From Fulvivirgaceae bacterium JP3-4 (GTDB lineage Bacteria; Bacteroidota; Bacteroidia; Cytophagales; Cyclobacteriaceae): a DNA stretch of 64,000 nucleotides. Position numbers and translations under genes: made by a program. Of this stretch, positions 43,824-63,805 are shown one piece after another (the stretch's first letter is position 1; each line of letters starts with the position of its first letter). The notes under the pieces were generated by a model. That model had not been told where the DNA came from. It did not search any database and was given only the letters and a program-made list of their open reading frames with translations. Location: contig JARKND010000001.1 in the NCBI GenBank assembly GCA_029309925.1, forward strand, positions 2,604,001 through 2,668,000, in the 5' to 3' direction.

Positions 43824-45176
43824 TCAGTTCACATCCGCCAGTTCCTCTTTTCGGGTTTTTAGTTTTTCGAGAACGTAGCTTCCCAATGCACGGCCTTCGA
43901 TCATTCCGTTTTCTACGGCAGGGCGATAATGGATTCCGCCATACATCCTGCTGATTGCGGCCTCTTCAGCTGCATGCATGAATGAGTTGAACGATCGGAC
44001 AGAAAGGCCAAATTCTATCTCGGTTGAATCAGTGAAGGCAAAATTATCACCGAACAATTTTGTAAGCGCGGTGGCAGAGGCAGCGGAAATAACGCTGTGA
44101 CCACTGGTGTATTCCGGGAACGGAGGTGTTTGCAACAGGGGCACCCAATCCTCATCGATGTGCTGATTGATGAAACTCTCCGGACGGATGACACGGCTTC
44201 TGTATTTTTCATCCCAGCAGCTAATGAATCCATCGACCAGCGAAACAGCGACCAGTGCATAGGCTTCGGTTGATTCGACAAAATTTTTCTTTGCTTTGGC
44301 GCAGGCTACGTGTGTGATGTTCATCCAGTGGCCACCAGGGGAGATCTTCTTCGTGGCAAACATCACGTGACCTTTAACGTTCATTACGAATGGGTTGCAA
44401 TCCCAGAACGATGCGATCTGACGCTGCTCATCCGTCAGATTTTTTCCCATCTGATAAACTTCTTCCGCTTCCCTGAAGAACTTACTGTTTCGCTGCAGCG
44501 AAAAAGGCGTAGGCGCAGATGGCTTAAATTGCGCTGCCGAGTCAATTGCAAATGTTCTTATTTTGTTCCAATGTGGTTCAACGGCATCCATATACGCAGG
44601 AGGCGTGGGCTTCCAGGTTGCCGGTGAGTTCTCAATGGAGTATTTCGGGAATGAACGGCTTTGCTTGTAATTGTCTTTAGAAGACCACGCGAGGATGTGA
44701 TCGGCTACTTTAGTACCATAGGCAACAGACCTTTCAAAAACTTCTTCCGGCATGCCGGAGTTTCTGAACTGCGTCATGATGCTGTCGTAGAATACGTCCA
44801 TCTTATCTTCAGAAAAAACCAATGTGCGTCCGATCTTTAGCATCGCCTGCGTGCTGGCCAGCGGAAACGAATATTCCTGGCCAGGGTCGGGCTCCGGTGT
44901 TTTTTCAAGACCGTTCAGCTTGCCGGCAAGGCTTTCAAACTTGGGATCGAAATGACGTGCGGCTTCATAACCCGCAATGGACATATAGGCGTAAATGCGG
45001 GATGCCACCGGAGGAGAAAAAATATCATACACAATGACATCGGTCACCTGCTTGACAGAACCATGGATATATTCCGGATTTTGTGTCGTCAGTCGCCAGT
45101 CCTCCTGTGTCTCCCGGATGGTTGAACAGCCAAGGACAACTACACAAATCAATCCACTCAGCACCAGTTGTTTCAT
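43824..45176 (-). CDS. PAP2/vanadium-haloperoxidase-fold lipoprotein
   Basis: Envelope lipoprotein of 450 residues (Cys17, VVLGCSTIR). The C-terminal half has the three active-site motifs shared by vanadium haloperoxidases and PAP2 phosphatases: KYRSRVIRPESF, PEYTSGHSVISAASA with the GHS core, and SRMYGGIHYRPAVENG with the SRxxxGxH His. The protein has no membrane helices after the signal, as in the haloperoxidase-like branch. It may be a phosphatase or a peroxidase; the sequence does not decide. It is the last gene of the SusC/SusD operon and starts 67 bases after the GH65 gene ends. Confidence 0.85.
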   Translation of the reverse strand: MKQLVLSGLICVVVLGCSTIRETQEDWRLTTQNPEYIHGSVKQVTDVIVYDIFSPPVASRIYAYMSIAGYEAARHFDPKFESLAGKLNGLEKTPEPDPGQEYSFPLASTQAMLKIGRTLVFSEDKMDVFYDSIMTQFRNSGMPEEVFERSVAYGTKVADHILAWSSKDNYKQSRSFPKYSIENSPATWKPTPPAYMDAVEPHWNKIRTFAIDSAAQFKPSAPTPFSLQRNSKFFREAEEVYQMGKNLTDEQRQIASFWDCNPFVMNVKGHVMFATKKISPGGHWMNITHVACAKAKKNFVESTEAYALVAVSLVDGFISCWDEKYRSRVIRPESFINQHIDEDWVPLLQTPPFPEYTSGHSVISAASATALTKLFGDNFAFTDSTEIEFGLSVRSFNSFMHAAEEAAISRMYGGIHYRPAVENGMIEGRALGSYVLEKLKTRKEELADVN

Positions 45177-45243
45177 AGGGGTTTCGGGTAAAAAACAAAA
45201 ATACAGAATTGCCCGGGCAATCAAAACAGGGCTGCCAGCCGGC

Positions 45244-47271
45244 CTACTTTACGGTGAAATCTTTTTTCTGGATACCGACACCTTTGATCTGCAGCGACTT
45301 CCATTGCTTTGGAAGCATGCCTTTCTGCTGAACGATTCCCTGATCAGTGATCTGAAGACCACCGAATCCGGCAATCACGGCCTGCAGCATTCCACCTGCA
45401 CCTGTAGCAAAATAAGGGTTTGTGCCACCGGCCGTTTCAGCCAGCACACCGAAAGGCTGCACTTCATTCGGCTTGTAACTCTTCACAAACCAGGAATATG
45501 CTTTGTCAGGATTGCCGAGCTTCGCGTAGAGTGTCGCCAAAACTGAATTGCCCATCGCTGGACCATTGGGTGACATCCGTGGCTCGTAGTATTTCAGGTC
45601 CTTTTCAATCTGAGTACGATCGGTAATAATGTCCAATGGGTATGCCAAAAGGTTGACGTCTGCCTGTTTGATATCAACGCCATCGTAGGTGGCGTTCTCG
45701 CGCGTGACGCCATCAGGAAACTTGAGGATCGGAACATTCTGAGCAACGTGCTCCCAGTCGGGATTTGGTGCAAGGCCTAACTCCCTTGCCGCCTGACTTG
45801 CATAGCGCAATGAAGTAATAGCCATGCCGTTGGTGAATGCGTTGTTGTCGATATTCTCCTGCCATTCGTTGGCACCGATGACGTTGTTTATCTCGTAACG
45901 GCCCGGACCTTTTCGTTCCACCCTGCTCGACCAGAAGTCTGCAACTTCTTTCAGCACCGGGTATCCCCTGTCCCGCAGCCACGTTTTGTCTTTTGTGACC
46001 TGGTAGTATTTCCAGAAGGCCCATCCGACACATCCTGTGATGTGATGCTGGAATGGACCGGTAAGTGCCCACACAGGTGTATCTTCACTGCCTTCATCCG
46101 AACTTTCCCATGGGAACATTGCACCTTTATAACCATGAGAAAATGCATTCTGTCGCGCGGCTTCGAGGCGCTGGTACCTGTACTCCAGAACTGACTTTGC
46201 CATTTCGGGCTGCATCATGAGCAGCGGTGGATACATCCAAAGTTCCGTATCCCAAAACACGTGTCCATTATATCCAAGACCGGAAAGTCCCATAGGAGAA
46301 AGACTGAACGCGGTGCCTTCGCGGACAAATGAATACAGATGGTACAATGCAAAACGAATATCTTTCTGCGCCTGCAGATCGCCTTCTATCACAATGTCAC
46401 TTCGCCAGATTTTTTCCCATTCAGCTTCATGCCGTGCGAGTAAGCGTGCCGCACCTTCGAGGCGCGCAAAGACTGTCAGTCGCTCTGCTTCATTTAACGG
46501 ATCGTTATATACACCCGTTGATGTAGCTGACGCCACCACCCAGAACTGATAAGTCTGACCAGCCTTCAAATCTTTATAAAACTTCACGAGGTGCATGTTG
46601 TAATCCCAGTCTTCGTGAATCAGCACCGGTTCCTGTCCATGCGCTTCTGAGAAAATAATGCTGTTGCTGACTGCAACGGTGTGCCTGCCTGACGGGCTCT
46701 TGCCAACCGATGTTAAGAGCGGAATCTTTACGTGCGGCCTGTCAATTTCACTGTATAAATTTCTGACATCTGTTAAGTGGTTCGGTGCTTCGATTACGCT
46801 CATCGGAGTAATACGCACGTCTTTTTTTGCGGTGATCTCGATGCTGGCAAGGGCAGTGTATGGCAAATGTCTCAACGCATACAGTGTATGTCGTACTGAT
46901 ACTTTGTCACCAACATTGAATGTAGTGGCAAGTGCTGCCCGCTTCATATCCAGCGACTGCCTGTAATCGGAAATTTCCTTCTGGCCGATGCGCTGTCCAT
47001 CCACATCGAGATTCATGTTTATGTGATTGAAAGTCTTGAGAATGTTGGAAACGCGACCGCGCTGGTAGTAATCGTACACACCGTTGAGCACAACATCTCT
47101 AACCTTCATTGGTTCAGGTGATGATACCAGACCGATCATCCCGTTCGCCACCGTCACTCCATAATAATTGTTAGCATCTATCTTCGAGGCATCGATAGTC
47201 CAACCATTGTCCTGACCGAAGGACCCGGCAGAACATAAAATGAGCAGTGCAACTGGAAAAATGTGTTTCAT
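45244..47271 (-). CDS. secreted GH65 glycoside hydrolase (alpha-glucosidase type)
   Basis: Periplasmic enzyme of 675 residues with a signal peptide (LCSAGSFGQ, 1-19). The GH65 layout is an N-terminal beta-sandwich (to about 270) and an (alpha/alpha)6 barrel. The acid catalyst is E469 in NNVIGANEWQEN. E612 (FGVLAETAGGTNPYF) stands where the hydrolase branch has its catalytic base and where phosphorylases instead bind phosphate. From memory, the Flavobacterium johnsoniae alpha-1,2-glucosidase FjGH65A has the same pair at nearly the same spacing. So hydrolysis of kojibiose-like or other alpha-glucobiose links is more likely than phosphorolysis. It is two bases from the third FG-GAP gene. Confidence 0.88.
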   Translation of the reverse strand: MKHIFPVALLILCSAGSFGQDNGWTIDASKIDANNYYGVTVANGMIGLVSSPEPMKVRDVVLNGVYDYYQRGRVSNILKTFNHINMNLDVDGQRIGQKEISDYRQSLDMKRAALATTFNVGDKVSVRHTLYALRHLPYTALASIEITAKKDVRITPMSVIEAPNHLTDVRNLYSEIDRPHVKIPLLTSVGKSPSGRHTVAVSNSIIFSEAHGQEPVLIHEDWDYNMHLVKFYKDLKAGQTYQFWVVASATSTGVYNDPLNEAERLTVFARLEGAARLLARHEAEWEKIWRSDIVIEGDLQAQKDIRFALYHLYSFVREGTAFSLSPMGLSGLGYNGHVFWDTELWMYPPLLMMQPEMAKSVLEYRYQRLEAARQNAFSHGYKGAMFPWESSDEGSEDTPVWALTGPFQHHITGCVGWAFWKYYQVTKDKTWLRDRGYPVLKEVADFWSSRVERKGPGRYEINNVIGANEWQENIDNNAFTNGMAITSLRYASQAARELGLAPNPDWEHVAQNVPILKFPDGVTRENATYDGVDIKQADVNLLAYPLDIITDRTQIEKDLKYYEPRMSPNGPAMGNSVLATLYAKLGNPDKAYSWFVKSYKPNEVQPFGVLAETAGGTNPYFATGAGGMLQAVIAGFGGLQITDQGIVQQKGMLPKQWKSLQIKGVGIQKKDFTVK

Positions 47272-47273
47272 AA

Positions 47274-50200
47274 CTAGCGTAGTTTAAATCCAAGAACCGA
47301 ACTATTATTTCTTCCAACAAGATATGATTTTTCACCTCGTGGACCTTTCGTAAATTTAATATCGCGACCCTCACCCCGCACAATAAAGCCTGACTCTTTT
47401 GGCGGGATGGCCTTAAATCCACCGCTACCATCGCCTTGCAAGATCAAGCCCACTCCTGCGTCATACGGACCGATTTCCGGCTGAACCGCGGTCAGATTCC
47501 CGCACAGCATAAGGTCTTGTTTGCCGTCTTTGTTAAAATCATCAGTCAGAATACTGAAGATTGGAAAAAACTGAGCCTCTACGGGAAGCGCCTTCACAAT
47601 AAATTTGCCGTTGTCATTGATCATCAACACGGATCGAAATTCATTTGCCTGCATCACAGCCGAGTTGCCCTGCAGCTGCGGTGTTACAATGTCATCGAGC
47701 TCAACATTCCTGTAGTCGTAGTAATTCAGAAACTTCTTTTTAAGTGATGGTATCTGACGCACGAGCTGATCACGTGAAGTGAATGGATAACTCCTGTCAC
47801 CGTTGTAGTAAACGAGGATATGATCTGATCCTCCGTTCGAATCAAAGTCACCCAGGTACATGGTCAGCGGTTTTTCTTTTGTTGCTGTCAGCCGTGAGTT
47901 CAGACCCACATTGCCAGCGATCAGGTCATCATCACCATCGTTATCAATATCCGCTGCGACAACAGAATTCCACCACCCTTTTGTGTCAGCAAGACCATAT
48001 TCTGAAGTGCGATTGATGAAACGATGATCGGGTTGCTGAATCAAGATCGTCACCTGCATCCACTCTCCTGCCAACACAAGGTCAGGTCGGCTATCCTTGT
48101 TGATGTCCGTCCACGTTGCGTCCTTCACCATCCCGGGACGGTTGCGTGATGGATTGTCAAACGTGCTGCCACCGAGCCATCCTGAGTTCACAAGGAAATT
48201 TCCGGTGCCATCATTTTCGAGGAGATAGCTTACGGGACTCATCCCGTAGAGCATCGGAATAACAACGGCACCGATAAACAAATCCTGATCTCCATCGCCA
48301 TCATAATCCGATGGCTTCACACACGATGCGTGCAATGAAATAGCAGGAAGTTTTGCAGGTTGATGCGAAAAATTACCTTTACCGTCATTGACGTACAGTC
48401 GCGGATGCAGAAGTTCCTTTTTGTCAAGCTCTTCCTGCCCTCCGGACACAACCACCAAGTCGAGATCGCCATCTTTATCCGAATCGAAAAAGGCGGCATC
48501 AACATCTTCATGTTCGCGGTGCTGCACAAACGCGGCAACCGTCTTGAGGGAGAATTTTCCATCAGCCTGTCGCAAGAAAAGTTGTCCCGCCTGCCCTTTC
48601 GCCCCACCAACAAAGACATCATCCATACCGTCACCATTGATGTCACCTGTAGCGAGGCATGGGCCTTCAGTTGAAAACATGTGCGGGATCAGGCTTTCGC
48701 GATTAAATGCATTAAAGTCATTTTCCCTGTGTGTAAATGGTGGTGCCGTAGCCTGGACAAACATCGGAGGCTGCGCTTTTTCTTTTGTCTGGCTTTCCTT
48801 TGACTCGCTGTATCTCAACACCACATTTTTTTGGTCCGAGATCTCTGCCTGTGTAATTCGCAGATCAGGCCATGTCACCGTGACTGTAATCTTCGAAGTA
48901 GCAGCACGTCCAAACATCATTTCATAATCCGAAGACGAACACCATCCACGGGTGGGAAATAGTTGCTGAACCTGGCTGCCCTTGTCAGATGAAACTGTAA
49001 CCTTCGCACCAATAGCATTGAGATTGGCGCTGCCCGAGTCGCCTTTCAAAGAAATCTTCAAGAAAGTACCTGGTGCTGCTGTATTTTCATAAACACCAAC
49101 CATGCCGTTGATGCGGTTGACCACTATATCCGGATCACCGTCACCGTCAAGGTCGCCAATAGCGCCACCGTTGGAATATCCCGTCTCAGACAATCCCCAC
49201 TGTTGCGAAACATCTTCAAATGTCAGTTTGCCTGTATTGCGAAAAAAGAAATTGTTCACCTTGCCTTCCGGCATCTTGTTGATCCATGGGAGAACATCAG
49301 CCTGCTTCTGAACAGAGTCAGAAGAAATAAAATTGATATAGTCAAGATCGTTCGGACGTCTGACGATGCCGTTGGAGATAAACAGATCTTTGTATCCATC
49401 ACCGTCAAAGTCCTGCAGCAACGGTCCCCAGCTCCAGTCTGTCGCGCTGACCCCTGCAGCCAACGCTATATCCCTGAATGACACCGCGGCAGAATCGATC
49501 TTCCCCAGGTTGACTTGCAAGGTATTTCGCGATACCTGCTTGTGATAGCCATACTTCAATTTGAATGAATATACTTCGTAAGAGTCCTCGCCTGCAGATG
49601 TTTTGATCACCGATTCATCCTGCGGAAGCATATCAACCGTGACAATATCGGGCAACTGATCATTGTTGATGTCACCAATATCATTTCCCATGGAAAAACG
49701 GCTCGTGTGCGGCATGGATTTCTCCAGTTGTTGCGAGAATGTGCCGTCTTTCTGATTGATGTACAAATAATCGTTTTCGATAAAATCGTTGGAGATGTAA
49801 ATGTCGGGATACCCGTCTTCATTTAGATCCGAAACACCAATGCCAAGTCCGTAACCGATCTGACTTGAATAGATCCCTGCTTCGCGCGTAACATTAGTAA
49901 AGCTGTGTTTGCCCGTCTCTTTAAAAAGGTTTTTGTAGAGGCGGTCTCCCGCAAGCGAATCCGTCTGGTTGCGCAGGCTTACCTTCCCATAAGATCGCTG
50001 CGTATGCACGGAATGATTCAGCAGGTAGCAATCCAGATCGCCATCAAGATCATAGTCGAAGAACGAAGCCTGCGTTGAAAAACCCTGAAAGGATAAGCCA
50101 TACTCTTCTGTCCTGTCTGTGAACGTTAAATTGCCATTGTTGATAAAAAGCTGATTGAAGCCGTTGAACTTTTTGTAGTTTCCAACGCCACAGACGAAGA

Positions 50201-50600
50201 TGTCGAGGCGGCCATCGCTGTTGATGTCAACCATCGATACTCCTGTCTTCCAATTTCCTTTTGCTGCAACGCCTGCACTGGTGGTAATATCTTCGAATAC
50301 AAACTTGCCCTTGTTCAGGTAAAGTTTGTTTTCACCGCGGTTGGCAGACAGGTATACATCAGGCAAACCATCGTTGTTAATGTCCCCAATCGCTACTCCA
50401 CCACCGTTGTAATAATAAAGGTATTCAATAATATTGAAGTCCTGGTCGTCATGGAGCGCGTTGACAAAACGAATTCCCGTATCAGCAGAGTCGAGCTGAC
50501 GAAATAATGTTTGTGCAGGTGCAGCTTTTTCAGCTTCATTACAAGCCGCAAGTGTCAACACCGAAAACAAAACAAGAAGGATGTTAACGTGCCCTCTCAC
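47274..50600 (-). CDS. FG-GAP/VCBS-ASPIC double-propeller lipoprotein (third copy)
   Basis: Surface lipoprotein of 1108 residues, lipid Cys20 (LTLAACNEAEK). It has fourteen DxDxDG-type calcium loops: seven before (DINNDGLPD to DLDGDGDPD, about 70-490) and seven after (DINGDGMDD to DFNKDGKQD, about 655-1060) an ASPIC/UnbV segment (about 500-610, with VTVTWPD). This suggests two seven-bladed integrin-alpha-like propellers. Three cysteine-poor, acidic paralogs sit in tandem. The start is a GTG that overlaps the previous gene's stop (GTGA). A conserved helical insert (QIPSLKKKFLNYYDY) lies between loops 13 and 14. Function is not established; ligand or glycan binding at the surface is a fair guess. 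Confidence 0.88.
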   Translation of the reverse strand: MRGHVNILLVLFSVLTLAACNEAEKAAPAQTLFRQLDSADTGIRFVNALHDDQDFNIIEYLYYYNGGGVAIGDINNDGLPDVYLSANRGENKLYLNKGKFVFEDITTSAGVAAKGNWKTGVSMVDINSDGRLDIFVCGVGNYKKFNGFNQLFINNGNLTFTDRTEEYGLSFQGFSTQASFFDYDLDGDLDCYLLNHSVHTQRSYGKVSLRNQTDSLAGDRLYKNLFKETGKHSFTNVTREAGIYSSQIGYGLGIGVSDLNEDGYPDIYISNDFIENDYLYINQKDGTFSQQLEKSMPHTSRFSMGNDIGDINNDQLPDIVTVDMLPQDESVIKTSAGEDSYEVYSFKLKYGYHKQVSRNTLQVNLGKIDSAAVSFRDIALAAGVSATDWSWGPLLQDFDGDGYKDLFISNGIVRRPNDLDYINFISSDSVQKQADVLPWINKMPEGKVNNFFFRNTGKLTFEDVSQQWGLSETGYSNGGAIGDLDGDGDPDIVVNRINGMVGVYENTAAPGTFLKISLKGDSGSANLNAIGAKVTVSSDKGSQVQQLFPTRGWCSSSDYEMMFGRAATSKITVTVTWPDLRITQAEISDQKNVVLRYSESKESQTKEKAQPPMFVQATAPPFTHRENDFNAFNRESLIPHMFSTEGPCLATGDINGDGMDDVFVGGAKGQAGQLFLRQADGKFSLKTVAAFVQHREHEDVDAAFFDSDKDGDLDLVVVSGGQEELDKKELLHPRLYVNDGKGNFSHQPAKLPAISLHASCVKPSDYDGDGDQDLFIGAVVIPMLYGMSPVSYLLENDGTGNFLVNSGWLGGSTFDNPSRNRPGMVKDATWTDINKDSRPDLVLAGEWMQVTILIQQPDHRFINRTSEYGLADTKGWWNSVVAADIDNDGDDDLIAGNVGLNSRLTATKEKPLTMYLGDFDSNGGSDHILVYYNGDRSYPFTSRDQLVRQIPSLKKKFLNYYDYRNVELDDIVTPQLQGNSAVMQANEFRSVLMINDNGKFIVKALPVEAQFFPIFSILTDDFNKDGKQDLMLCGNLTAVQPEIGPYDAGVGLILQGDGSGGFKAIPPKESGFIVRGEGRDIKFTKGPRGEKSYLVGRNNSSVLGFKLR

Positions 50601-53600
50601 TTTCTCCGCATTTTAAAAAACAGCATGCTGTCGTTATTGCGGGCAACAGCAAGAACCTTGCTGCCCTTAATATCCAAAAGCTGCAAATCTCTTACTTCCC
50701 CGTCAATCTGAAGTCCTGAAACAGCCGGGCTTACATAGTTGAACTTACCTTTCCCATCGCCAAGCATCAGTGCACCATAACTCGCATCATAGCGGCCGAC
50801 TTCGGGTTTTGTGCGATAGAGATTACCAGCCATCAGAATATCTTTTGTTCCATTATTGTCGAAGTCTTCAACAAGGATGGCGTACATCCTTGAGAATTGC
50901 GCTTCCACCGGCAGAGACTGAAAGGTGAATGACCCCTTGCCTGAATTGAGAAACACACCGGACGAAAGCTCATACGCATCGAGTCTTATTGCGCCCTTCA
51001 TCTCTTCTGGCGTAAATACCTGGTCTATCGTTTGATCTTTGTACGAATCGTACTTCAGAAATTTCTTTTTTAGCGCTGGGATTTGTGTAATGAGATCGTG
51101 ACGCAAGACCATCGGGTAACTTTTCTCTCCATGAAAGGTGCAGGTGATGTGTTCGATGGTGCCGTTGCGATCGAAGTCGTTAACATACATTGACACAGGT
51201 TTATCCTGAGCTGCTCTGAACCGTGAGTTCGTGCCGTGATTCGCTGCGATGATATCAAGGTCTCCATCATTGTCGATATCTTCCGTTACAATTTTCGACC
51301 ACCACCCATTCGTTTTATCAAGCCCTGCAGTTTGCGTGACATCTGCAAATGTTCCAGCTTTGTTGACGAACACTTTAATCGGCATATAGTCACCAGCAAC
51401 GATCAAATCAACCTTTTTATCGCCATCGATGTCTGACCACACCGCGCTGGTAATCATACCTACCTTCGTCAAGCCAGGCGCCACTTTATCGGTGACGTTC
51501 GTGAACACACCCTTACCATCATTGTTCAGGATATAGCCATTCGCGGGCAAGCCATAAGAAAAGGGAATACTTCTCACGCCAACAAACAGATCGAGATCAC
51601 CGTCACCATCGTAGTCTGAAGCTGCAACAGTTGAAGTGCTCTCGAATTTTCCTGCGGGAAGGATTTGATCAGATTTTACGAATTTTCCGTTGGTATTGAA
51701 ATAAAAACGGTCGACCAATGCATTGGAACTCGTTGAGAACTCATTACTTCCCGAGCAAACATACAGATCAAGGTCACCATCCCCATCGGCATCAAAAAGA
51801 ATGGAACTGACGTCTTCTGATAGTTTGTCTTTGTCAAACACGTCACCACTGGCGGGCTGAAATTCACCGGAAGCCGACTGCACAAACAAAGTGCCCGAAG
51901 ATCCTTTTGCTCCGCCTATATAGAAATCATCGCGACCATCTCCGTTGACGTCACCCACAGACATATCAGGGCCTTCACTGCTGATCATATGATAGAGCAG
52001 CTTGTCGCGATCGAAATCGACAAAGGCGCTTTCCTCGTGACGATATGTTGCCAACGGCTGAGAAAGACGCTCGAAGAGAGGCGCAGTCTTAACAGTAGCA
52101 ACTTCATTTATATTGGATCCCTCCTTAGGCTGTGTCAACTCCAGCATCTGATTTGCGGCAATGTCACGCAACACTGTCTTCTTTCCATCAGGCCATGTTA
52201 CTTCGATCACATCCAGTGAATCGATTTCCCCCAATCCGATAAACGGACGCGGATCAACAGACGATTCAAAACCGCGGTTGGGCATTTGTTCAAGATAGAA
52301 TTTCTTGCTGCCTCTCCTTAACTCTATATTAGCGCCAACAGCCAGTGTGTTCCTGCCGTTGCCCTTCAGCGAGAATGTGAGGTAATGATTATCCTTTTTC
52401 ATTTCGCTGGATTCATTTCGAATGACGCCAGCCAGTCCGTTGACGCGGTTCACAACGAGATCCAGGTCACCGTCATTATCCAGGTCTCCGTACGCAGCGC
52501 CATTTGAGAAATTAGGTGAGCCCAGACCCCATTCGCCTGCCCGATCTGTAAACTTAAGATTGCCCTCGTTATGGAATGCAAAATCCGGAACGGGATTCGA
52601 TGGAATGAGTTCGACAAGTTTTTTATAGTCAACCTTGTTTTTCGAAATGATAGACCGGACAATTTCTTCGTTTGAAACATACTGGAGATAATCCTGATTG
52701 GTCAGGTCCTGGTAGATGCCATTGGCAACAAAAATGTCTTTCAACCCATCGTTGTCCATGTCGAAGATCAATGCGCTCCAGCTCCAGTCTGTTGCTTCGA
52801 CTCCGCTCAATCGCCCGATCTCGCTGAACGTGTTGTCTCCATTGTTTAACTGAAGCATGTTACGCGTAAACTGGTGGTGATAGTCGTTGCTTACGTTATT
52901 TTGATAGCGGTCCCAGTTGTCAAACGTTGTAACGGTCTTCAACCGCTCATTGGCGTGCGGTAACATCTCTGTGACGAAGATATCCGGCCACGAATCATTG
53001 TTAATATCCGCCACATCGGCACCCATGGAAGCTGCGCTGATCGATTTCATCTGTTCTGTGAGTCTCTCCGAAAATGTGCCGTTGTGATTGTTGATGTAGA
53101 GGTAGTCTCTTTCAAAAAAATCATTTGAAACATAAATGTCAGGCCAGCCATCGCGGTTGACATCGCCCACCGTCACACCCAGTCCGAACCCAATTACACT
53201 TCCGTAGATACCGGCCTCTTCGCTGACATCTTTAAATTTTCCGCCATCATTTCTCAAAAGCTTGTCGCCACCAAGGGAATCTCTTTTTGGCCTTTCGTTT
53301 TTTCGAAGATTAAAACTTCCGATGGCCTGAAAACTATTGTTGAGAATATAAAGGTCAAGGTCGGAGTCCCTGTCGTAGTCAAAAAAAACTGCGTGTGTTG
53401 TAAATCCGCGATCGTCAACGCCATATTCCTGTGCGCGCTCCGAAAAAGTAAGATCACCATTGTTGATAAACAACTCATTCTCTTTATCGTCACCTTCTAC
53501 GTCACCTGAGTTGCAGACATAGATGTCAACAAAACCATCGCCATTGACATCGGCAAAGCTGACCCCTGTCGACCACGCGCGTGTTCCTCCTACTCCGGCC

Positions 53601-53917
53601 TTATCTGTGATGTCTTCAAACTTAAAATTGCCCTTATTAAGATACAGTTTGTTCTTCCCCTGATTTGAGATCATGTATACATCAACCAGACCGTCATTGT
53701 TAACGTCACCGAGCCCGACACCACCACCATTGTAGAAATTGCGATAGGTATAGATGTTAAAGTCCTGATCGAACTCAAGGCGGTTGGCGAAATCAACACC
53801 GGTGGAATCCGGAGGAAGTTCCGTAAAAAGTGTAGGCTTATGGTCATCTTCCTTTTCCACGCAGGAGCAGAGAAGTGATATCACAAGCACAAACAAAAGT
53901 GGGTGTTTCGTGATCAT
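50597..53917 (-). CDS. FG-GAP/VCBS-ASPIC double-propeller lipoprotein (second copy)
   Basis: Surface lipoprotein of 1106 residues with lipid Cys19 and a very acidic exposed start (CSCVEKEDDHKP), like the surface-export signal of this phylum. Fourteen calcium loops were counted, seven on each side of the ASPIC/UnbV region (VIEVTWPDGKKTVLRD, about 500-610). First loops: DVNNDGLVD, DVNGDGFVD, DYDRDSDLD; last loops: DIDNDGDLD, DFDRNGTIE, DFDNNGTKD. The helical insert between loops 13 and 14 reads QIPALKKKFLKYDSY. It starts nine bases after the small lipoprotein gene and overlaps the next copy by four bases. Confidence 0.88.
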   Translation of the reverse strand: MITKHPLLFVLVISLLCSCVEKEDDHKPTLFTELPPDSTGVDFANRLEFDQDFNIYTYRNFYNGGGVGLGDVNNDGLVDVYMISNQGKNKLYLNKGNFKFEDITDKAGVGGTRAWSTGVSFADVNGDGFVDIYVCNSGDVEGDDKENELFINNGDLTFSERAQEYGVDDRGFTTHAVFFDYDRDSDLDLYILNNSFQAIGSFNLRKNERPKRDSLGGDKLLRNDGGKFKDVSEEAGIYGSVIGFGLGVTVGDVNRDGWPDIYVSNDFFERDYLYINNHNGTFSERLTEQMKSISAASMGADVADINNDSWPDIFVTEMLPHANERLKTVTTFDNWDRYQNNVSNDYHHQFTRNMLQLNNGDNTFSEIGRLSGVEATDWSWSALIFDMDNDGLKDIFVANGIYQDLTNQDYLQYVSNEEIVRSIISKNKVDYKKLVELIPSNPVPDFAFHNEGNLKFTDRAGEWGLGSPNFSNGAAYGDLDNDGDLDLVVNRVNGLAGVIRNESSEMKKDNHYLTFSLKGNGRNTLAVGANIELRRGSKKFYLEQMPNRGFESSVDPRPFIGLGEIDSLDVIEVTWPDGKKTVLRDIAANQMLELTQPKEGSNINEVATVKTAPLFERLSQPLATYRHEESAFVDFDRDKLLYHMISSEGPDMSVGDVNGDGRDDFYIGGAKGSSGTLFVQSASGEFQPASGDVFDKDKLSEDVSSILFDADGDGDLDLYVCSGSNEFSTSSNALVDRFYFNTNGKFVKSDQILPAGKFESTSTVAASDYDGDGDLDLFVGVRSIPFSYGLPANGYILNNDGKGVFTNVTDKVAPGLTKVGMITSAVWSDIDGDKKVDLIVAGDYMPIKVFVNKAGTFADVTQTAGLDKTNGWWSKIVTEDIDNDGDLDIIAANHGTNSRFRAAQDKPVSMYVNDFDRNGTIEHITCTFHGEKSYPMVLRHDLITQIPALKKKFLKYDSYKDQTIDQVFTPEEMKGAIRLDAYELSSGVFLNSGKGSFTFQSLPVEAQFSRMYAILVEDFDNNGTKDILMAGNLYRTKPEVGRYDASYGALMLGDGKGKFNYVSPAVSGLQIDGEVRDLQLLDIKGSKVLAVARNNDSMLFFKMRRK

Positions 53918-53926
53918 TGCTCGATA

Positions 53927-54541
53927 CTACTCTCCTTTTGCGGATTCCGCTTTGGTGATTGAATGCTGAAATGCCGGGTGCAGAAGATCCTGAACTCTTG
54001 CGATTACGCTGCGTTGATCTTTTGTGTAGAGAATAATTCTGCGATTGCCATCAACTTTCACCGGCATCTCCTCACCTTTTACATTTGCGATGACAAAATC
54101 ATTTCCTTTATACCAGTTCACAAGCAAGTCCTGCAGATGATGCTTAAGGCTGTCAGCGTGAACCGATTTATCATAAATTGTCGAACCAATGTAGCTGAAC
54201 TCCATTTCCATTTCTGCTATACGATCGGAGTCGTCAAAATTTGGAAAGAAGAACATGCGGATCTGGCGCGGCTCCCTGTGCGCAAGTGAATCTACAAACA
54301 GGTATTGTACCGCACTATTGCCGGGACTTTGCTGGACAAGCTGTTGCTTATTCAAGTCAAAGCACCGCCCATAAAAATCCTGGCGCGTATCACCGAGGTT
54401 AATTCCAAACAGGATCGAATCGTTACGAACACCTTTGCTCAGCTCCTCTTTGACCAGTTTTGTGTAGTCAGACTGACATGCCGTCCAGAGGATACCGGCT
54501 GACACCAGGCTAATTATTAATCTTATATATCTCGAGTTCAT
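53927..54541 (-). CDS. small lipoprotein in the FG-GAP cluster, unknown family
   Basis: Lipoprotein of 204 residues; lipid Cys22 (LWTACQSDYTK) from the ATG at 54541. I do not recognise the family. The mature part has a segment ILFGINLGDTRQDFYGRCFDL near 40, a strand-rich middle (YLFVDSLAHREPRQIRMFFF), and a long region with a KVDGNRRIILYTKDQ end. 'GI.LGD....f..rc..L' is seen in other small Bacteroidota lipoproteins. It sits between two large propeller genes and overlaps the end of the first copy by about 32 bases, which argues for a shared function. Confidence 0.7.
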   Translation of the reverse strand: MNSRYIRLIISLVSAGILWTACQSDYTKLVKEELSKGVRNDSILFGINLGDTRQDFYGRCFDLNKQQLVQQSPGNSAVQYLFVDSLAHREPRQIRMFFFPNFDDSDRIAEMEMEFSYIGSTIYDKSVHADSLKHHLQDLLVNWYKGNDFVIANVKGEEMPVKVDGNRRIILYTKDQRSVIARVQDLLHPAFQHSITKAESAKGE

Positions 54542-57791: not shown

Positions 57792-57792
57792 T

Positions 57793-57832
57793 TTAAATAA
57801 AAAATAGCGCCCACCGTAAGTGGACGCTATTT
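57793..57832 (-). terminator. intrinsic terminator between susD and the FG-GAP genes
   Basis: On the minus strand a 13-bp stem (57820-57832 with 57802-57814, one U-G pair), five-base loop, then TTTTTTATTTAAAATGAG, the last ATG being the next start codon. It begins 32 bases after the susD stop. The hairpin would both end part of the transcripts and crowd the next ribosome-binding site. Confidence 0.85.
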
Positions 57833-57863
57833 CAAAATTACAAACTATAAAGTTATGCTCGTA

Positions 57864-59396
57864 TTAGTAGCCAGGATTTTGCTTGAGCGGGAATGCCGTT
57901 GAAGCAGAAGCCTGCATTTGCTGAATTGGAATAGGGAAAATATTCTTGTGCGGTGCATTGTGTGCAGGCTTTTCCCACCAAGCGTTGCCAAATGCTCCAA
58001 AGCGGATCAGATCAGGACGTCTCAGCGCCTCGATGAACAATTCTCTTCCGCGTTCTGCGAGCATCTGACCTTCAGTCATTGTAGTGAAGGTCGCAACACC
58101 TGCACGAGTCCTCAACTGGTTAACCAACGCAAGCGTAGTTGGATGGCTGAAGTTGTTTGCGTTCAGACGGGCAACAGCTTCTGCCTTATTCAACAATACT
58201 TCTCCATAGCGCAATACCGGATAGTCGTTGTCCATGTCGTTGTTCTGGCCAATCTTGAAACTGAATTTTCCAAGACGAGCACCAGCCTGACGGGAAGCGT
58301 TTGGAGCAAGTTCATTGATCTTTGGCGTATAGTTGATTGCAGGACCGTCCGGATCTGCCTTATCGAAGGCAAGGTCAAGGATTGGGTTGCCCTGGATGTC
58401 AACCTGAGGACCAACAATAAAGTTGTTTGCTTTACGCTTGTCAGCAGCTTCGTACGAGTTGTAAAACTCTTCCATCGCAGCATAACCATTCCATGGCTGT
58501 GATTGCAAACGGTACGTCAACTGGCTTGGGTAGTGGAGCGTCATTTGCGCAAAGAACATTCCCTGTCCAGTTGCCTCATCGAAAGGAACGATGAAGATGT
58601 GCTCAATATTCTCCACGTTGTCCGGATCGAAAACATCCTTATATTCTGGAGACAGGTTATACAATGATGAGTTGATCACCATATCGGCAGCATCAATCGC
58701 CTTTTGATACATTGCTGTGCCACGATACACGTTCGCGTTCAGGTAAATCCTTGACAACAATGCGTAAGCTGCTGCCTGATTGGCGCGGCCGTATTCGGGC
58801 TTTGCTGCAGGAAGGTTCGGAATCGCTGCAAGTAATTCTGCTTCGATGAAGTCGAACACCTGTGCGCGAGTTGATTGAGCAGCACCTTGTCCGGCCACGG
58901 TTACGATCGGCACATTACCGAAGAGATCCATCAAACGATAGTAAAAGAATGCCCTCAGGAATCGCAGCTGGGCGTTTGCGCTTGCATTCAAGCCGTTATC
59001 CAAAAGGTCGTTACACTGGAAGATACCGTTATAGGCATTTTCCCATGCATCGTTGATAGACACAGACTGCGGAGTGAAATTGTGCTTGTGCATTTCAAGG
59101 TTTACACCACCATCGAACCAGTCGCCACCACGCTGAGGCACGACAACCTCATCCGATGCCAGCTCCTGAACGTTCCAGTAGCCACCGTTCGTTGCCGTTC
59201 CGGCAAACAGTCGTGAGAAAGCGTCCGTCAATCCATCATTGGGTGTCGGCTTATTGACGTTGTTCTTGGTTCCAACACCGGGGTTGGCCGGATCAAAATC
59301 GCTTGTGAAATCACCCTTGATCTCCTCGTCCAGGTTACATGAAACTGACGATACGAAAAGGGCGGTTACGAGTGAATATTTTAAAAAATTCTTCAT
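57864..59396 (-). CDS. SusD/RagB-family nutrient-binding lipoprotein
   Basis: Outer-membrane surface lipoprotein of 510 residues, lipid Cys20, with the acidic surface-export start CNLDEEIKGDF. TPR-like helices typical of SusD are present (DAWENAYNGIFQCNDLLDNG near 115, LRFLRAFFYYRLMDLFGNVP near 145, GRANQAAAYALLSRIYLNANVY near 205). The C-terminal end shows VLRYGEVLLNKAEAVARLN, LRTRAGV, ERGRELFIEALRRPDLIRFG and FPIPIQQMQA. It captures the substrate and passes it to the SusC channel. It starts 17 bases after susC, so the two are co-transcribed, and a terminator follows. Confidence 0.96.
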   Translation of the reverse strand: MKNFLKYSLVTALFVSSVSCNLDEEIKGDFTSDFDPANPGVGTKNNVNKPTPNDGLTDAFSRLFAGTATNGGYWNVQELASDEVVVPQRGGDWFDGGVNLEMHKHNFTPQSVSINDAWENAYNGIFQCNDLLDNGLNASANAQLRFLRAFFYYRLMDLFGNVPIVTVAGQGAAQSTRAQVFDFIEAELLAAIPNLPAAKPEYGRANQAAAYALLSRIYLNANVYRGTAMYQKAIDAADMVINSSLYNLSPEYKDVFDPDNVENIEHIFIVPFDEATGQGMFFAQMTLHYPSQLTYRLQSQPWNGYAAMEEFYNSYEAADKRKANNFIVGPQVDIQGNPILDLAFDKADPDGPAINYTPKINELAPNASRQAGARLGKFSFKIGQNNDMDNDYPVLRYGEVLLNKAEAVARLNANNFSHPTTLALVNQLRTRAGVATFTTMTEGQMLAERGRELFIEALRRPDLIRFGAFGNAWWEKPAHNAPHKNIFPIPIQQMQASASTAFPLKQNPGY

Positions 59397-59413
59397 ATGA
59401 TCTCTCTGTTTTT

Positions 59414-62362
59414 TTACAGGCCGATGTTTACACCAAAAGTAAATGTCGTGGCCGTGAAGTAGTTGTTTCTTCTGTCAATACCAGGTGCCAACACGTTAGG
59501 TGTCGTTCCAACAAAACCACCGTTATCAGATCCACCGAAGTCCTGAAGAACTGGTTCCGGGTCGATACCGGTATACTTGGTAATCACGAAAGCATTCTGA
59601 ACGTTAGCGTAAACGCGGAAGCTCTTGACAGCTGCGCCTGACGCGGTCTTAACGTTGTATCCAAGCGTGATATTGTCAAGCTTGAAGAAATCTGCCTTTT
59701 CAACGTACAGGGAGCTATACTGCGCAGAAGTCAAGCCTGCAACTGCCTTATCCGTGAGAACACGGTTGTAAGAGTTGATCGCACCTGGATCGATAGGCTC
59801 ATAGAACGCCCTGAAGTTGTTTACGAGGCTGTGACCGAATGCGCCTCTGAAGAATGCATTCAGATCCCAGTTCTTGAATGTCAACTGGTTAGTCCAGCCC
59901 AATTCCATTGTAGGAAGACCGTTACCAAGTTGTTTGAAATCACCATTCGGGTTCAATGCTTCTGCCGGTGCTGAAATTACCTGGCCGTCACCATTGATGT
60001 CCGCAAAACGAGGAGCACCGTTTCCTTCAACGCCTGAGAACACAGGTCCCCAGATCTGACCGATCTCTTCACCTTCGGCAACACGGATCATGAATGTACC
60101 GTTTTGCCCAGGTGCACCGAGTTCAGCCATCATTTGTTCATCGATGATGAACTCCTCAAGAGTTGTTTTGTAAGTGCTTAACACGATGCCAGGCTGCCAG
60201 CTAAGCTCGCCAAACTTGAATGAGTTGTAAGCCAATGAAAGTTCGGCACCATTTGTCTTCAAAGCACCAGCGTTCTCAAAACGTCTGCCTGATGGATATT
60301 CAGTAACAGGAACCTGTCTTTCAAGGATGAAGTCTTTGATATCACGAGTATACACATCAATAGCACCAGAGAACTTGCCGCCCAATCCGAAATCAACACC
60401 AACGTTGATCTCTGATTTCTGTTCCCACTTCAGGTCTTTGTTTGCATCTCTGCGCAGTGTCACGCCACCACCACCTTGAAGCGAGTATTCGTATAAGTCT
60501 TGTGACAGACCTGATTCATTCGGTAATGAACCAGTCACACCATAACCTACTCTGAATTTCAATACATCAACGTTGTTAATGCTGAGGTAGCGATTCAGAT
60601 CAACACCAAGACCCGCTGCAGGGAAGATACCCCACTGGTTGTCTTCACCAAGCTTTGTAGATCCTTCTCTTCTTACAGACGCGTTAAAGAAAATCGCGTT
60701 GTCGAAAGTAAGGTTCACACGACCGAAGCCAGCGATAATGCGGTTAGCTGGAGAAGCGTTGCTGCTGATGTTTACGCGGCTTGCAAGACCTGAAAGACGG
60801 TCTCCGGAAGCTTCCAGCATGTTGTATCCCAGGATGTCGCTTGGGAAATCTCCGAGTTCAAGGAAAAGGTCTTCAAAATTATCTTCCTGGAAGGAATAAC
60901 CAGCCGAAAGATCCAGGTTCACTTTGCCCAGTAGCTTGGAATATGTTCCATATGCCTCGAACAATGTGAATGATCTGTCAGAAGTATAGCGTCTTGCCAG
61001 ACCACCGCGGTTCAACCCTCTGAACAATGAAGCACGGGAATAGTACTCACCATTCAAAGTGTTCTCGTATTGCTGACCGTAGTTTGCTGTGAGTGTCAGA
61101 CCTTCGAACAACTGATAATCAATCTTTGCATTATAGTTGAGTGTCTTGCGCTTGCCTTCGTTGATGTTTTGGTCAAGAATGGCAACCGGGTTAAAGTTGT
61201 CGAAAAGGATCGCCTGATAGTAGTTACCGTTATCAAAACGGATTGGCGCTGTTGGGTTATAAAGAACCGCGTAGCGAAGTGCCTCATTAAAGGAGTAGTT
61301 GCTCTTGCGGTTTGTTAATGCCATGTTGAAGTCAAATCTCAGCTTGTCGTTCAACGCGCTATGTGTCAGGTTAGCGCGACCGTTGATCTGATCGAATCCT
61401 GATTTCTCAAGGATACCATTGATATCACGGAAGTTAGTTGACAAGCGGAAAGTAGTTTGCTGGTTGCCACCTGAGATTGCCAGGTTGTGAACATGCGATA
61501 TACCTGTTCTTGTAACTTCGTCAACCCAGTCGGTTTCTGAACCAAGGTCGTTACCACCTGCGGCCAGATACTCAGAGCGGCTCATCAATGGCTGTTGACG
61601 TGCGATAGTCGCAGCTGAAATATAGCCATTGTAGTTTGTTGAAAGACCACCATTGCGGGTCGAGCCGCGCTTCGTAGTAACGAGGATAACGCCTGAAGAA
61701 CCACGGCTACCGTAAATTGCAGCTGCAGAACCATCCTTCAAAACGTTGATCGACTCGATGTCGTTAGGGTCTACGTTGTCAAGTGATGCACCGATAACTC
61801 CATCGATTACCACAAGAGGCGAAGTGTTGGCACCCACCGTAGAGATACCTCTCAAACGAATTGTAGAGTTTGAGTTCGGGTCGCCTCCGCGGTTATACAC
61901 GGAAAGACCTGGCACTTTTCCCTGGAGGAGCTGAGTCGGGTCGTTGATGTTACCCCGGTTAAATTCCTTCTCACTCAAAGCGACCACCGAACTGGTAATC
62001 TCTTTCTTCTCCTGCGAACCGTATCCGACTACCACCACTTCAGATAGTGATGTTACATCAGATGACAGACTTACGTTCACCGTAGTTTGAGTACCTACCG
62101 CCATCTCCTGCGTTTCGTACCCTACAAACGAAAAAACAAGCGTTGCTGTTGAAGGAACGCTCAGACTGAAATTTCCGTCAGCATCGGTGGCGGTACCGTT
62201 GTTAGTACCTTTTTCAATTACATTGACACCAGGAAGTCCGGTACCATCATCAGATGACGTTACCTTCCCTGTCACAGTCCTACTCTGCGACCACGCCATG
62301 GTCGTTGCCAGCATCAGTAGAACCGTAAGATACCTGCTTAGAGACAAGTAAAATTTTGACAT
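59414..62362 (-). CDS. SusC/RagA-family TonB-dependent transporter
   Basis: Outer-membrane importer of 982 residues. From the ATG at 62362 a signal peptide (LLMLATTMAWSQ) is followed by a carboxypeptidase-regulatory-like domain (VTGKVTSSDDGTGLPGVNVI, about 25-100). The plug domain follows (VVVGYGSQEKKEITSSV near 115, then STIRLRGIS and SINVLKDGSAAAIYGSRGS). The rest is a 22-stranded barrel ending in an aromatic-rich terminus (FTATTFTFGVNIGL). There is no STN domain, so it is not of the anti-sigma-signalling type. It imports the ligand bound by SusD using TonB energy. The open frame extends to 62428, but the signal peptide supports 62362. Confidence 0.96.
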   Translation of the reverse strand: MSKFYLSLSRYLTVLLMLATTMAWSQSRTVTGKVTSSDDGTGLPGVNVIEKGTNNGTATDADGNFSLSVPSTATLVFSFVGYETQEMAVGTQTTVNVSLSSDVTSLSEVVVVGYGSQEKKEITSSVVALSEKEFNRGNINDPTQLLQGKVPGLSVYNRGGDPNSNSTIRLRGISTVGANTSPLVVIDGVIGASLDNVDPNDIESINVLKDGSAAAIYGSRGSSGVILVTTKRGSTRNGGLSTNYNGYISAATIARQQPLMSRSEYLAAGGNDLGSETDWVDEVTRTGISHVHNLAISGGNQQTTFRLSTNFRDINGILEKSGFDQINGRANLTHSALNDKLRFDFNMALTNRKSNYSFNEALRYAVLYNPTAPIRFDNGNYYQAILFDNFNPVAILDQNINEGKRKTLNYNAKIDYQLFEGLTLTANYGQQYENTLNGEYYSRASLFRGLNRGGLARRYTSDRSFTLFEAYGTYSKLLGKVNLDLSAGYSFQEDNFEDLFLELGDFPSDILGYNMLEASGDRLSGLASRVNISSNASPANRIIAGFGRVNLTFDNAIFFNASVRREGSTKLGEDNQWGIFPAAGLGVDLNRYLSINNVDVLKFRVGYGVTGSLPNESGLSQDLYEYSLQGGGGVTLRRDANKDLKWEQKSEINVGVDFGLGGKFSGAIDVYTRDIKDFILERQVPVTEYPSGRRFENAGALKTNGAELSLAYNSFKFGELSWQPGIVLSTYKTTLEEFIIDEQMMAELGAPGQNGTFMIRVAEGEEIGQIWGPVFSGVEGNGAPRFADINGDGQVISAPAEALNPNGDFKQLGNGLPTMELGWTNQLTFKNWDLNAFFRGAFGHSLVNNFRAFYEPIDPGAINSYNRVLTDKAVAGLTSAQYSSLYVEKADFFKLDNITLGYNVKTASGAAVKSFRVYANVQNAFVITKYTGIDPEPVLQDFGGSDNGGFVGTTPNVLAPGIDRRNNYFTATTFTFGVNIGL

Positions 62363-62521
62363 ACGGTTTTTTTGGTTTGGGTTAACTGTTAAAAAATAAA
62401 TGGAGGATATAGAAAAGCTGTGGGTCAAAGCACACTAACTATAATTCCAATTAAAATATAGGAAGAACGCGCTGATTAACTCATGAAATTTTGAACATTT
62501 TTTTTTAGGAATCGAATCCGC

Positions 62522-62529
62522 AAACGTTT
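62522..62529. promoter_or_regulatory. AAACGTTT palindrome upstream of susC (candidate LacI-family site)
   Basis: Perfect 8-bp palindrome with the CG centre that LacI-family proteins favour, 160 bases before the susC start. Confidence 0.4.
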
Positions 62530-62673
62530 CCGCTTTTCAAACTGGCACGGATTAGCCTCTAAAATGCCCGGTTTTTGAATTCTTTTTAACGCGTCATATC
62601 CGGGATTTTTGCGCCCGAAAACGTTGAAGTGCTGGTTGTTGACATCGAGCGCAAAAACTCAAGAACTGATTTA

Positions 62674-62721
62674 CGCAATCGATTGCGGTGCAATGGTAAA
62701 TTATTTGCGCAACGAGTTGCG
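62674..62721. promoter_or_regulatory. paired palindromes upstream of the lacI-type gene (candidate operators)
   Basis: CGCAATCGATTGCG (62674-62687) is a perfect 14-bp palindrome. CGCAACGAGTTGCG (62708-62721) has the same six-base arms style, CGCAAC/GTTGCG, around a two-base centre. Starts are 34 bases apart. A further GTTGCG half-site lies at 62729-62734. All lie within 80 bases of the regulator's start codon. Confidence 0.6.
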
Positions 62722-62752
62722 ATGATTGTTGCGGAACGGTTAACTTGCAGTC

Positions 62753-63805
62753 ATGAAATACAATCAAGTAACCATCAAAGACATCGCCCGCGAGCTCGGT
62801 ATCTCCCCTTCTACTGTCTCACGTGCGCTGAAAGATCATCCAGACATCAGCCCTGAAACAAAGAAGGCAGTCAACGAATTGGCCGAGAAACTAAACTACC
62901 AGCCAAACATTGTCGCGCTGAGTTTACGTCAAAGCAAGACAAACACGATCGGAGTTATTATTCCTGAACTCGTACACTTCTTCTTTTCTACTGTGATCAG
63001 CGGAATTGAAGACGTTGCATACAGCGCAGGTTACAATGTCATCATCACGCAATCAAATGAATCGCTTCAACGCGAGAAGACCGATATAAAAGCACTCTTC
63101 AACAGCCGTGTTGACGGCATGCTTATCTCCGTCTCGCGCGAAACGAATACTTTCGATCATATTGAAGGCATTCTGGCCAAAGGTGTTCCAATGGTCTTCT
63201 TCGACCGCGTATACGAAAATGCAAACTCCAGCAAAATCATTGTTGACGATTTGAGTGGCGCCAAGGAAGCAACGCTTCACCTGATTGAACAAGGTTGCAA
63301 ACGCATTGCCCATTTGGAAGGTCCGCCAAACCTCGAAATCACCAAGCAGCGTCTTGAAGGATATGTTGAAGCTTTGAAAGAACATAACATTCCTGTGAAC
63401 AAGAGTCTCATCATGGCGTGTCCTCTGGGAACCATTGAAGAAGGCAAGAAAGCAACGGAGAAACTACTGGCTATGAGTGAACCGCCTGACGCGATTTTCG
63501 CAACGAACGATCCGGCTGCTATGGGTGCCATGCAGGCGATCAAGGAAGCCGGATTAAAGATTCCAAAGGATATTGCGGTGGTAGGATTCAGCAACTGGTT
63601 CTTCAGTGCACTCCTCGATCCGCCATTGACTTCAGTTGACCAGCCAGGTTTTGAGATGGGACAGGAAGCCGCAAAACTTCTGATCCGTCAGATAGAGCTC
63701 AAGACAAAAAACAGCGATGTTGACGTCCAACCTGAAACAAAAGTGTTGAAAACCAGACTGGTTGTCCGCGATTCTTCTCTGAAGAAGGGAAAGAAAACAA
63801 AATAA
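62753..63805 (+). CDS. LacI-family transcriptional regulator
   Basis: DNA-binding regulator of 350 residues. The N-terminal helix-turn-helix reads VTIKDIARELGISPSTVSRA (6-25) with the hinge helix region NYQPNIVALSLRQSKTNTIG (about 46-65). The periplasmic-binding-protein-like sensor domain follows (VIIPELVHFFFSTVISGIED, VDGMLISVSRETN, RIAHLEGPPNLEITKQRLEG, AIFATNDPAAMGAMQAIKEAG, VVGFSNWFFSALLDPPLTSV). It is divergent from susC and probably controls that operon, and itself, in response to a sugar. Palindromes of the LacI type lie between the two genes. Confidence 0.95.
   Translation: MKYNQVTIKDIARELGISPSTVSRALKDHPDISPETKKAVNELAEKLNYQPNIVALSLRQSKTNTIGVIIPELVHFFFSTVISGIEDVAYSAGYNVIITQSNESLQREKTDIKALFNSRVDGMLISVSRETNTFDHIEGILAKGVPMVFFDRVYENANSSKIIVDDLSGAKEATLHLIEQGCKRIAHLEGPPNLEITKQRLEGYVEALKEHNIPVNKSLIMACPLGTIEEGKKATEKLLAMSEPPDAIFATNDPAAMGAMQAIKEAGLKIPKDIAVVGFSNWFFSALLDPPLTSVDQPGFEMGQEAAKLLIRQIELKTKNSDVDVQPETKVLKTRLVVRDSSLKKGKKTK

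Follow-up and report, generated by a model that had tools for sequence, protein, structure and literature searches.

What does a SusC/SusD operon do when more than half of the protein that it encodes consists of three giant propeller lipoproteins? This question is raised by a locus in a 64,000-nt stretch of the 5.8-Mb genome of Fulvivirgaceae bacterium JP3-4 (G000:C1:2604001-2668000, where G000 is this genome), hereafter called the window; all positions are window coordinates. On the minus strand, genes for a SusC transporter, a SusD lipoprotein, the propeller protein PropA, a small lipoprotein, PropB, PropC, a glycoside hydrolase of family 65 (GH65) and a vanadium-haloperoxidase-family lipoprotein (VHPO) follow each other in this order, and are succeeded by genes for a trehalase, a GlpF-like channel and the kinase GlpK. 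A gene for a LacI-family regulator is divergent from SusC. We consider it on balance probable that the locus is a LacI-controlled outer-membrane operon for uptake and breakdown of small alpha-glucosides, in which the propellers build a surface assembly around SusCD. That the substrate is alpha-glucosidic is well supported. The linkage of a trehalase gene to the module supports trehalose as a substrate, and from the presence of an alpha-1,2-glucosidase together with glycerol genes we hypothesize that glucosylglycerol may be another.

Recurrence of the core in Bacteroidota genomes

If the genes form a unit, the initial annotation argued, their neighborhood should be found again in related genomes. 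The gene set indeed recurs in many genomes, and therefore the neighborhood is not due to chance. VHPO homologs were detected in 78 of 296 genomes of the phylum (E ≤ 0.001), and in 54 of them the best match exceeded 300 bits. The best place in 50 of these 54 genomes was counted as a phylum locus, leaving out the 24 genomes with weaker matches; the remaining four (G000, G064, G019, and G078) carry the core as well. In 34 of the 50 phylum loci, the distance from VHPO to a propeller gene on its strand is at most 6 kb, and 26 of these 34 also have SusC or SusD on the same strand within 16 kb, although some stretches end before SusCD could show and one genome (G029) was credited by hand. Among the named loci, 28 of the 47 with both 10-kb flanks, a subset of the best 80 named loci out of 584 relatives found, have a propeller gene within 6 kb of VHPO on the same strand. 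PropB matches occur in 179 of the 296 phylum genomes, part of them being partial matches only.

The same association is seen from the side of the propellers. Where 8 kb or more of upstream sequence was available, 38 out of 50 distinct propeller genes are preceded by SusC or SusD within four genes on their strand. Adjacent propeller genes overlap or are separated by fewer than 60 nt in 64 of 67 distinct pairs. All loci were found via VHPO, GH65 or propeller matches, so that the figures apply to loci of this kind rather than to propeller genes in general. The comparison adds to the initial annotation that SusCD, propellers and VHPO form the recurring core, and that GH65 is an optional passenger. 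The JP3-4 genome itself contains four more propeller loci (L154–L157), one of which has the order SusC-SusD-propeller-VHPO-propeller (L154) and two the order SusC-SusD-propeller (L156, L157).

Propeller proteins and the small lipoprotein

PropA, PropB, and PropC each match FG-GAP_3, FG-GAP and UnbV_ASPIC above cut-off and thus belong to the CRTAC1/ASPIC-UnbV propeller family. Together, they comprise 3,307 of the approximately 6,130 coded residues of the eight-gene run (54%), in agreement with an initial estimate of about half. Calcium-type D-x-[DN]-x-[DN] loops (11 in PropA, 13 in PropB, 14 in PropC) form two groups, one N-terminal and one C-terminal, that are separated by the UnbV_ASPIC domain, which we read as two propellers per protein with seven blades each. 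The structure of PropB, predicted from an alignment of 40 sequences (window and named loci), reached a predicted local distance difference test score (pLDDT) of 90.5 and a predicted template modeling score of 0.91. Its best fold match is mouse CRTAC1 (PDB 9etn; E 5e-26), which is also the best sequence match. The FG-GAP/UnbV_ASPIC kinship is shared by both proteins, but the mouse chain has 551 residues and the bacterial double propeller 1,106, and the TM-score normalized by query length is 0.36.

The paralogs appear to be specific for their position. In 22 of 24 named loci with at least two full-length copies listed, the last copy is closest to PropC and the preceding copy closest to PropB (exceptions are L224 and L257). 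The small lipoprotein gene is located between the first two propeller genes in, e.g., L118, L121, L126, L129, and L184, likewise in L198, L200, L226, L241, and L256, and in L268 the VHPO gene directly follows it. Its product is predicted well (pLDDT 86.7), but neither a PDB fold match at E ≤ 0.001 nor a Pfam family was found.

Acidic residues after the lipobox, a signal for surface export, were counted in three protein classes. At least two are present in 35 of 87 propellers, 27 of 72 VHPO proteins and 30 of 37 SusD proteins, with a lipobox pattern found in only 87 of the 170 full-length propellers. Since these counts failed to separate the classes, we make no surface claim from lipobox signals; from gene order in combination with lipoboxes, we infer that the propellers are SusCD-associated surface proteins.

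The haloperoxidase-family protein

A haloperoxidase fold had been proposed for the last protein of the run. The PAP2 match confirms this, but a much closer relationship had been overlooked: the best solved match is PDB 4cit, presumably the vanadium iodoperoxidase of Zobellia, with 515 bits and an E-value of 1e-153 over 417 residues and with the same active-site motifs. Vanadium haloperoxidases are characterized by the motif K..R, SGH, R..H, and their vanadate site is common to PAP2 phosphatases. The corresponding residues of VHPO (K324, R331, S358-G359-H360, R410, and H416) are invariant in eight aligned sequences. VHPO is probably an enzyme anchored in the membrane whose vanadate/phosphate site is intact, and for which either halide oxidation or phosphate removal would be possible.

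A protein 99% identical to 4cit was found once in a search of 299 genomes (the family of G261), namely in G323, where its gene (L128) directly follows three propeller genes and precedes a gene for a GyrI-like protein. A place after three propeller genes is shared with the window, but SusCD is not directly upstream in G323; the nearest pair seen (L178) is several genes away and belongs to another run. The closest named relatives of VHPO include metagenome-assembled genomes of Cyclobacteriaceae (at most 70% identity) and Chryseolinea serpens (64%), in a search from which records of the window's own genome were possibly left out. Judged by these relatives, the host probably belongs to the Cyclobacteriaceae.

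Sugar enzymes, glycerol genes and the proposed ligand

The carbohydrate enzymes in the run are GH65 and, beyond a gap of 523 nt, the trehalase of family GH37. Handling of an alpha-glucosidic ligand, as initially suggested, is backed by both. GH65 exceeds the cut-off of the kojibiose-hydrolase (alpha-1,2-glucosidase) equivalog. Its best solved match is 7fe3, i.e., FjGH65A (818 bits; 325 of 612 printed alignment columns identical), and all five active-site residues are kept: W391, E392, T407, E472, and E616, of which we take the latter two to be acid and base, respectively. These residues are named in the accessible part of the FjGH65A description (PMC8626586), the numbering of which is 3 above that of the PDB chain; without this offset, the named residues are missed. 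GH65 genes with 59–63% identity to that of the window adjoin VHPO in G428, G292, G352, G398, and G180, and further cases are G064, G019, G078, G144, and G017, as well as G265 (L196), where GH65 was labeled by profile only.

Linkage was counted in 78 genomes of the window's own family, one per genus; the chance figures given here are based on uniform placement in 5 Mb and do not correct for shared descent. In 13 of the 33 genomes that have both, a trehalase gene is found on the strand of VHPO and at most 3 kb away from it (chance approx. 0.04), always downstream. GH65 of the kojibiose-hydrolase type is no more than 3 kb from VHPO, and also on its strand, in 7 of 12 genomes with both (chance approx. 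0.01), and GlpK is found on this strand at a distance of up to 12 kb in 9 of 51 (chance approx. 0.2). When the JP3-4 genome is excluded, the values are 12 of 32 for trehalase, 6 of 11 for GH65 and 8 of 50 for GlpK. GlpK passes the equivalog cut-off of TIGR01311 in the window as well as in L199, L226, L228, and L256, and is followed in L199 and L256 by a GlpD-like protein that stays under the curated cut-offs. The channel is labeled as a glycerol facilitator because it is placed before GlpK. Nearly the layout of the window is present in L250 (propeller, small lipoprotein, propeller, propeller split into two open reading frames (ORFs), GH65 fragment, VHPO, trehalase, SSF, GlpF, GlpK). This fragment (L250:9534-10004; 156 amino acids) is found where other loci carry the full gene, possibly due to decay. 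Downstream of VHPO, G261 has GH97 and GH100-like genes, and GH13 genes are located in the neighborhoods of G064, L241, L250, and L273. A kinase near VHPO in L262 was rejected as GlpK, being xylulokinase-like and located beside a xylose isomerase gene; the layout of L263 is alike.

The best solved match of SusC is 8aa4 of a dextran utilisome. Among the loci compared, SusC (61%) and SusD (57%) of the window are closest to L125 and L122.

From these genes, we propose the following sequence of events. Most likely, the ligands would be trehalose and glucosides with an alpha-1,2 linkage; 2-O-alpha-glucosylglycerol is perhaps one of these glucosides. PropA, PropB, and PropC could form, together with the small lipoprotein, a surface assembly around SusCD which concentrates or gates the ligand, and SusCD would import it. 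A periplasmic GH65 would then cut alpha-1,2-glucosidic bonds, the lipoprotein trehalase would cut trehalose, and glycerol, if released, might enter via GlpF and be phosphorylated by GlpK.

Candidate operators and a hairpin after SusD

LacI-type control, as assumed initially, may act through palindromes. The LacI product is 85% identical to the LacI protein beside the G019 locus, and the window contains the pattern GCAAWCGWTTSC twice, each time in the gap between LacI and SusC. A palindrome is also found 129–158 nt upstream of SusC in G019, G078, G064, and G144, and 159 nt upstream in G790; G019 has a further one 69 nt before the LacI gene. Seventeen palindrome sites were counted in 209 loci (3.7 Mb, with some overlap). 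Of these sites, 15 are no more than 300 nt ahead of the start of a called ORF, compared to 3,733 of 20,000 random positions. Nine of the 17 lie at most 300 nt upstream of SusC or LacI, compared to 168 of 20,000 random positions. In our proposal, LacI would act on the GCAAWCGWTTSC palindromes as a repressor for as long as no inducer is available.

The genome of JP3-4 contains GCAAWCGWTTSC at six places (nine strand matches), one of which is in a gap, 252 and 303 nt before two ORFs. Another one, the perfect palindrome GCAATCGTTTGC, is located at L284:2383 (G000:C5:850383), 130 nt before a gene for a sugar-porter MFS protein, which is likely a regulon member, judged by this site. In G019 and G078, further palindromes (L084:272, L084:6716, L086:6221, L086:12666) precede genes for a GMC oxidoreductase, Gfo/Idh/MocA and Nuc_H_symport proteins (families tested in G019), and the oxidoreductase has a gluconate 2-dehydrogenase subunit-3 partner. 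This suggests a glucoside-oxidation branch in the same LacI regulon of these two genomes.

A hairpin with T-tract is present in 30 of 45 distinct gaps between SusD and a propeller gene, with 0.4 in shuffled sequences, but in none of 13 SusC-SusD, 10 propeller-propeller and 27 propeller-VHPO gaps. It could hold the giant propellers below the level of SusCD. Specificity for the propeller system was ruled out, as hairpins were likewise found behind 7 of the 14 other SusD genes examined; the impression is that of a general dosage element behind SusCD. A promoter scan was uninformative (29 found, 26.2 expected).

Weighing the proposed function

Several observations weigh against an alpha-glucoside operon with this composition. 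VHPO has no propeller gene within 6 kb in 16 of the 50 phylum loci, and hence the presence of the complete core is not a strict rule. Among the named loci, too, VHPO occurs without propellers, in many cases in Saprospiraceae records. When 26 GH65 places were inspected across the order, 5 adjoined VHPO and 21 did not. SusC of the window is only 31–33% identical to SusC of G064, G019, and G144, whose GH65 enzymes are 76–78% identical to that of the window; thus, transporter and enzymes were probably reshuffled among loci, which weakens conclusions on the ligand drawn from SusCD alone. GlpK follows VHPO without GH65 in L228, L234, and L256 (family-tested in L228 and L256), which makes GH65 doubtful as the sole source of glycerol. 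Due to the 523-nt gap after VHPO, the genes for trehalase, GlpF and GlpK may be transcribed separately. Concerning the operators, two of the six palindromes of the JP3-4 genome are inside ORFs, and a reversed control pattern has three matches in this genome compared to nine for GCAAWCGWTTSC. Further, we know of no glucosylglycerol activity in this GH65 clade. The substrates given for FjGH65A in the accessible part of its description are glucobioses, kojioligosaccharides and glucans (PMC8626586).

Other functions were considered as well. Uptake of glycerol-phosphate glycans or lipids, such as teichoic acid fragments, in which kojibiose occurs, would give a role to the PAP2 fold of VHPO as a phosphatase, to GH65 acting on kojibiose and to GlpF and GlpK taking the glycerol; the three loci with GlpK next to VHPO but without GH65 fit as well. 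We nevertheless regard this as unlikely, as no phosphodiesterase was seen among the operon genes in family scans, a vanadium haloperoxidase is by far the best solved match of VHPO, and the trehalase is left unexplained. The enzymatic role of VHPO would be central if the ligand were halogenated or oxidatively modified, VHPO acting as the working peroxidase subunit of a surface machine with secondary sugar enzymes. The kept vanadate-site residues and the location of the gene nearly identical to 4cit after three propeller genes agree with this. However, family scans of the operon genes recognized neither a peroxide source nor a dehalogenase, and several of the linked genes encode plain alpha-glucosidases, so we give this idea little credence.

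The remaining alternatives concern the linked enzymes. A polysaccharide utilization locus for alpha-1,2-branched dextran, with GH65 trimming branches as in FjDexUL of Flavobacterium johnsoniae, is suggested by the best solved matches of both GH65, whose counterpart FjGH65A works in FjDexUL, and SusC. Against this, a GH66 match was found in none of eight genomes (JP3-4 and seven relatives), and no dextranase was seen in family scans of the operon genes. The published descriptions of FjDexUL mention a SusE/F protein but no propellers and no VHPO, and trehalase and glycerol genes would not fit. Because GH66 was not found, the locus is probably not a branched-dextran system, and the chances of this explanation appear slim. 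Finally, SusCD and propellers could be a unit to which GH65, VHPO, trehalase and glycerol genes are unrelated passengers. Each of these is indeed missing from some loci, but their same-strand co-localization is tens to hundreds of times above uniform expectation (ignoring shared descent), which renders mere chance neighborhood highly improbable. An operon for small alpha-glucosides stays our preferred explanation.

Comparison with known systems

The levan and dextran utilisomes of Bacteroides thetaiotaomicron, according to the accessible part of their description (PMC7618045), likewise combine SusC, SusD, extra lipoproteins and a glycosidase in one locus. They carry a surface glycan-binding protein and a glycoside hydrolase, in contrast to three double propellers of about 1,100 amino acids, a small protein and VHPO here. 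FjDexUL, as described in the accessible parts of PMC10316084 and PMC8626586, shares a kojibiose-hydrolase GH65 in a SusCD locus. In the window operon, neither GH66, GH31, GH97 nor SusE was seen; instead, propellers, VHPO, trehalase and glycerol genes are present, and LacI takes the place of the SusR homolog. Among the best-ranked hits of a search in open-licence PMC papers, none deals with SusCD in combination with VCBS/ASPIC proteins and a haloperoxidase, judged by titles and beginnings of abstracts.

Layout of the locus and accompanying genes

The initial annotation correctly recognized the divergent LacI gene and the tightly spaced run of eight genes on the minus strand; it missed the continuation into trehalase, GlpF and GlpK (Table 1). 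From SusC to VHPO, the intergenic gaps are 17, 72, −32, 9, −4, 2, and 67 nt, and after VHPO 523 nt, 24 nt (trehalase-GlpF) and 3 nt (GlpF-GlpK), all on the same strand. Likely start codons are slightly off the longest ORFs for SusC (ATG 62362), VHPO (ATG 45176) and the small lipoprotein (ATG 54541).

Table 1. Genes and candidate regulatory elements of the locus in window coordinates.
Feature	Position	Strand	Basis
LacI-family regulator, divergent from SusC	62753..63805	+	LacI HTH and Peripla_BP_3
Candidate LacI operator, perfect palindrome GCAATCGATTGC	62675..62686	.	pattern match
Candidate LacI operator GCAAACGTTTCC	62520..62531	.	158 nt upstream of SusC ATG
SusC TonB-dependent transporter, 982 aa	59414..62362	-	TIGR04056, 641 bits (cut-off 368)
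SusD lipoprotein, 510 aa	57864..59396	-	SusD-like_3 and SusD_RagB
Terminator-like hairpin, 15-bp stem and T-rich tail, candidate attenuator	57801..57833	-	between SusD and PropA
PropA, FG-GAP/VCBS and UnbV_ASPIC lipoprotein, 1,093 aa	54510..57791	-	domain matches; lipobox by eye
Small lipoprotein, 204 aa	53927..54541	-	no Pfam family
PropB, 1,106 aa, UnbV_ASPIC flanked by two calcium-loop propellers	50597..53917	-	domains and predicted fold
PropC, 1,108 aa, domain make-up as PropB	47274..50600	-	domain matches
Secreted GH65, kojibiose-hydrolase type, 675 aa	45244..47271	-	NF053734, 1134.7 bits (cut-off 800)
VHPO, vanadium-haloperoxidase-family lipoprotein, 450 aa	43824..45176	-	PAP2; 4cit match
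GH37 trehalase, 529 aa, lipobox by eye	41711..43300	-	TreF subfamily NF009773, 575 bits (cut-off 512)
MIP-family GlpF-like glycerol facilitator, 234 aa	40982..41686	-	TIGR00861, 195.9 bits (cut-off 171)
Glycerol kinase GlpK, 495 aa	39491..40978	-	TIGR01311, 731 bits (cut-off 590)

Some genes accompany the module in other genomes. A GyrI-like protein of approximately 300 amino acids recurs (L081:13689-14585, L083, L085, L128, L134–L136, L139, L144) and was not seen in the window operon. DUF3179 genes are repeatedly found downstream of VHPO in relatives (L084:9988-11178, L199:15377-16567). A gene of approximately 313 codons is found directly ahead of GH65 or VHPO, encoded on the other strand, in L143, L146, L147, L149, L150, and L196, with no Pfam family in the copy tested (L196). 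Matches in metagenome-assembled genomes labeled Gemmatimonadaceae (L235) and Rickettsiales (L274) are possibly misbinned Bacteroidota contigs.

Implications

Based on these results, the locus appears to be a widespread Sus-like system of new composition. A more far-reaching proposal, which we put forward tentatively and consider doubtful at present, is an unrecognized surface machine widespread in Bacteroidota, made of SusCD, position-specific double-propeller lipoproteins and VHPO as a regular subunit, and serving here to scavenge compatible solutes (trehalose, glucosylglycerol) from other microbes. If true, this would provide a physiological setting for the huge ASPIC/VCBS lipoproteins present in many Bacteroidota genomes, and also for the 4cit haloperoxidase family, a near-identical member of which sits after three propellers. 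In addition, the LacI regulon can be put to the test, and the locus is a candidate for a route that the carbon of osmolytes such as trehalose and glucosylglycerol takes in water and soil.

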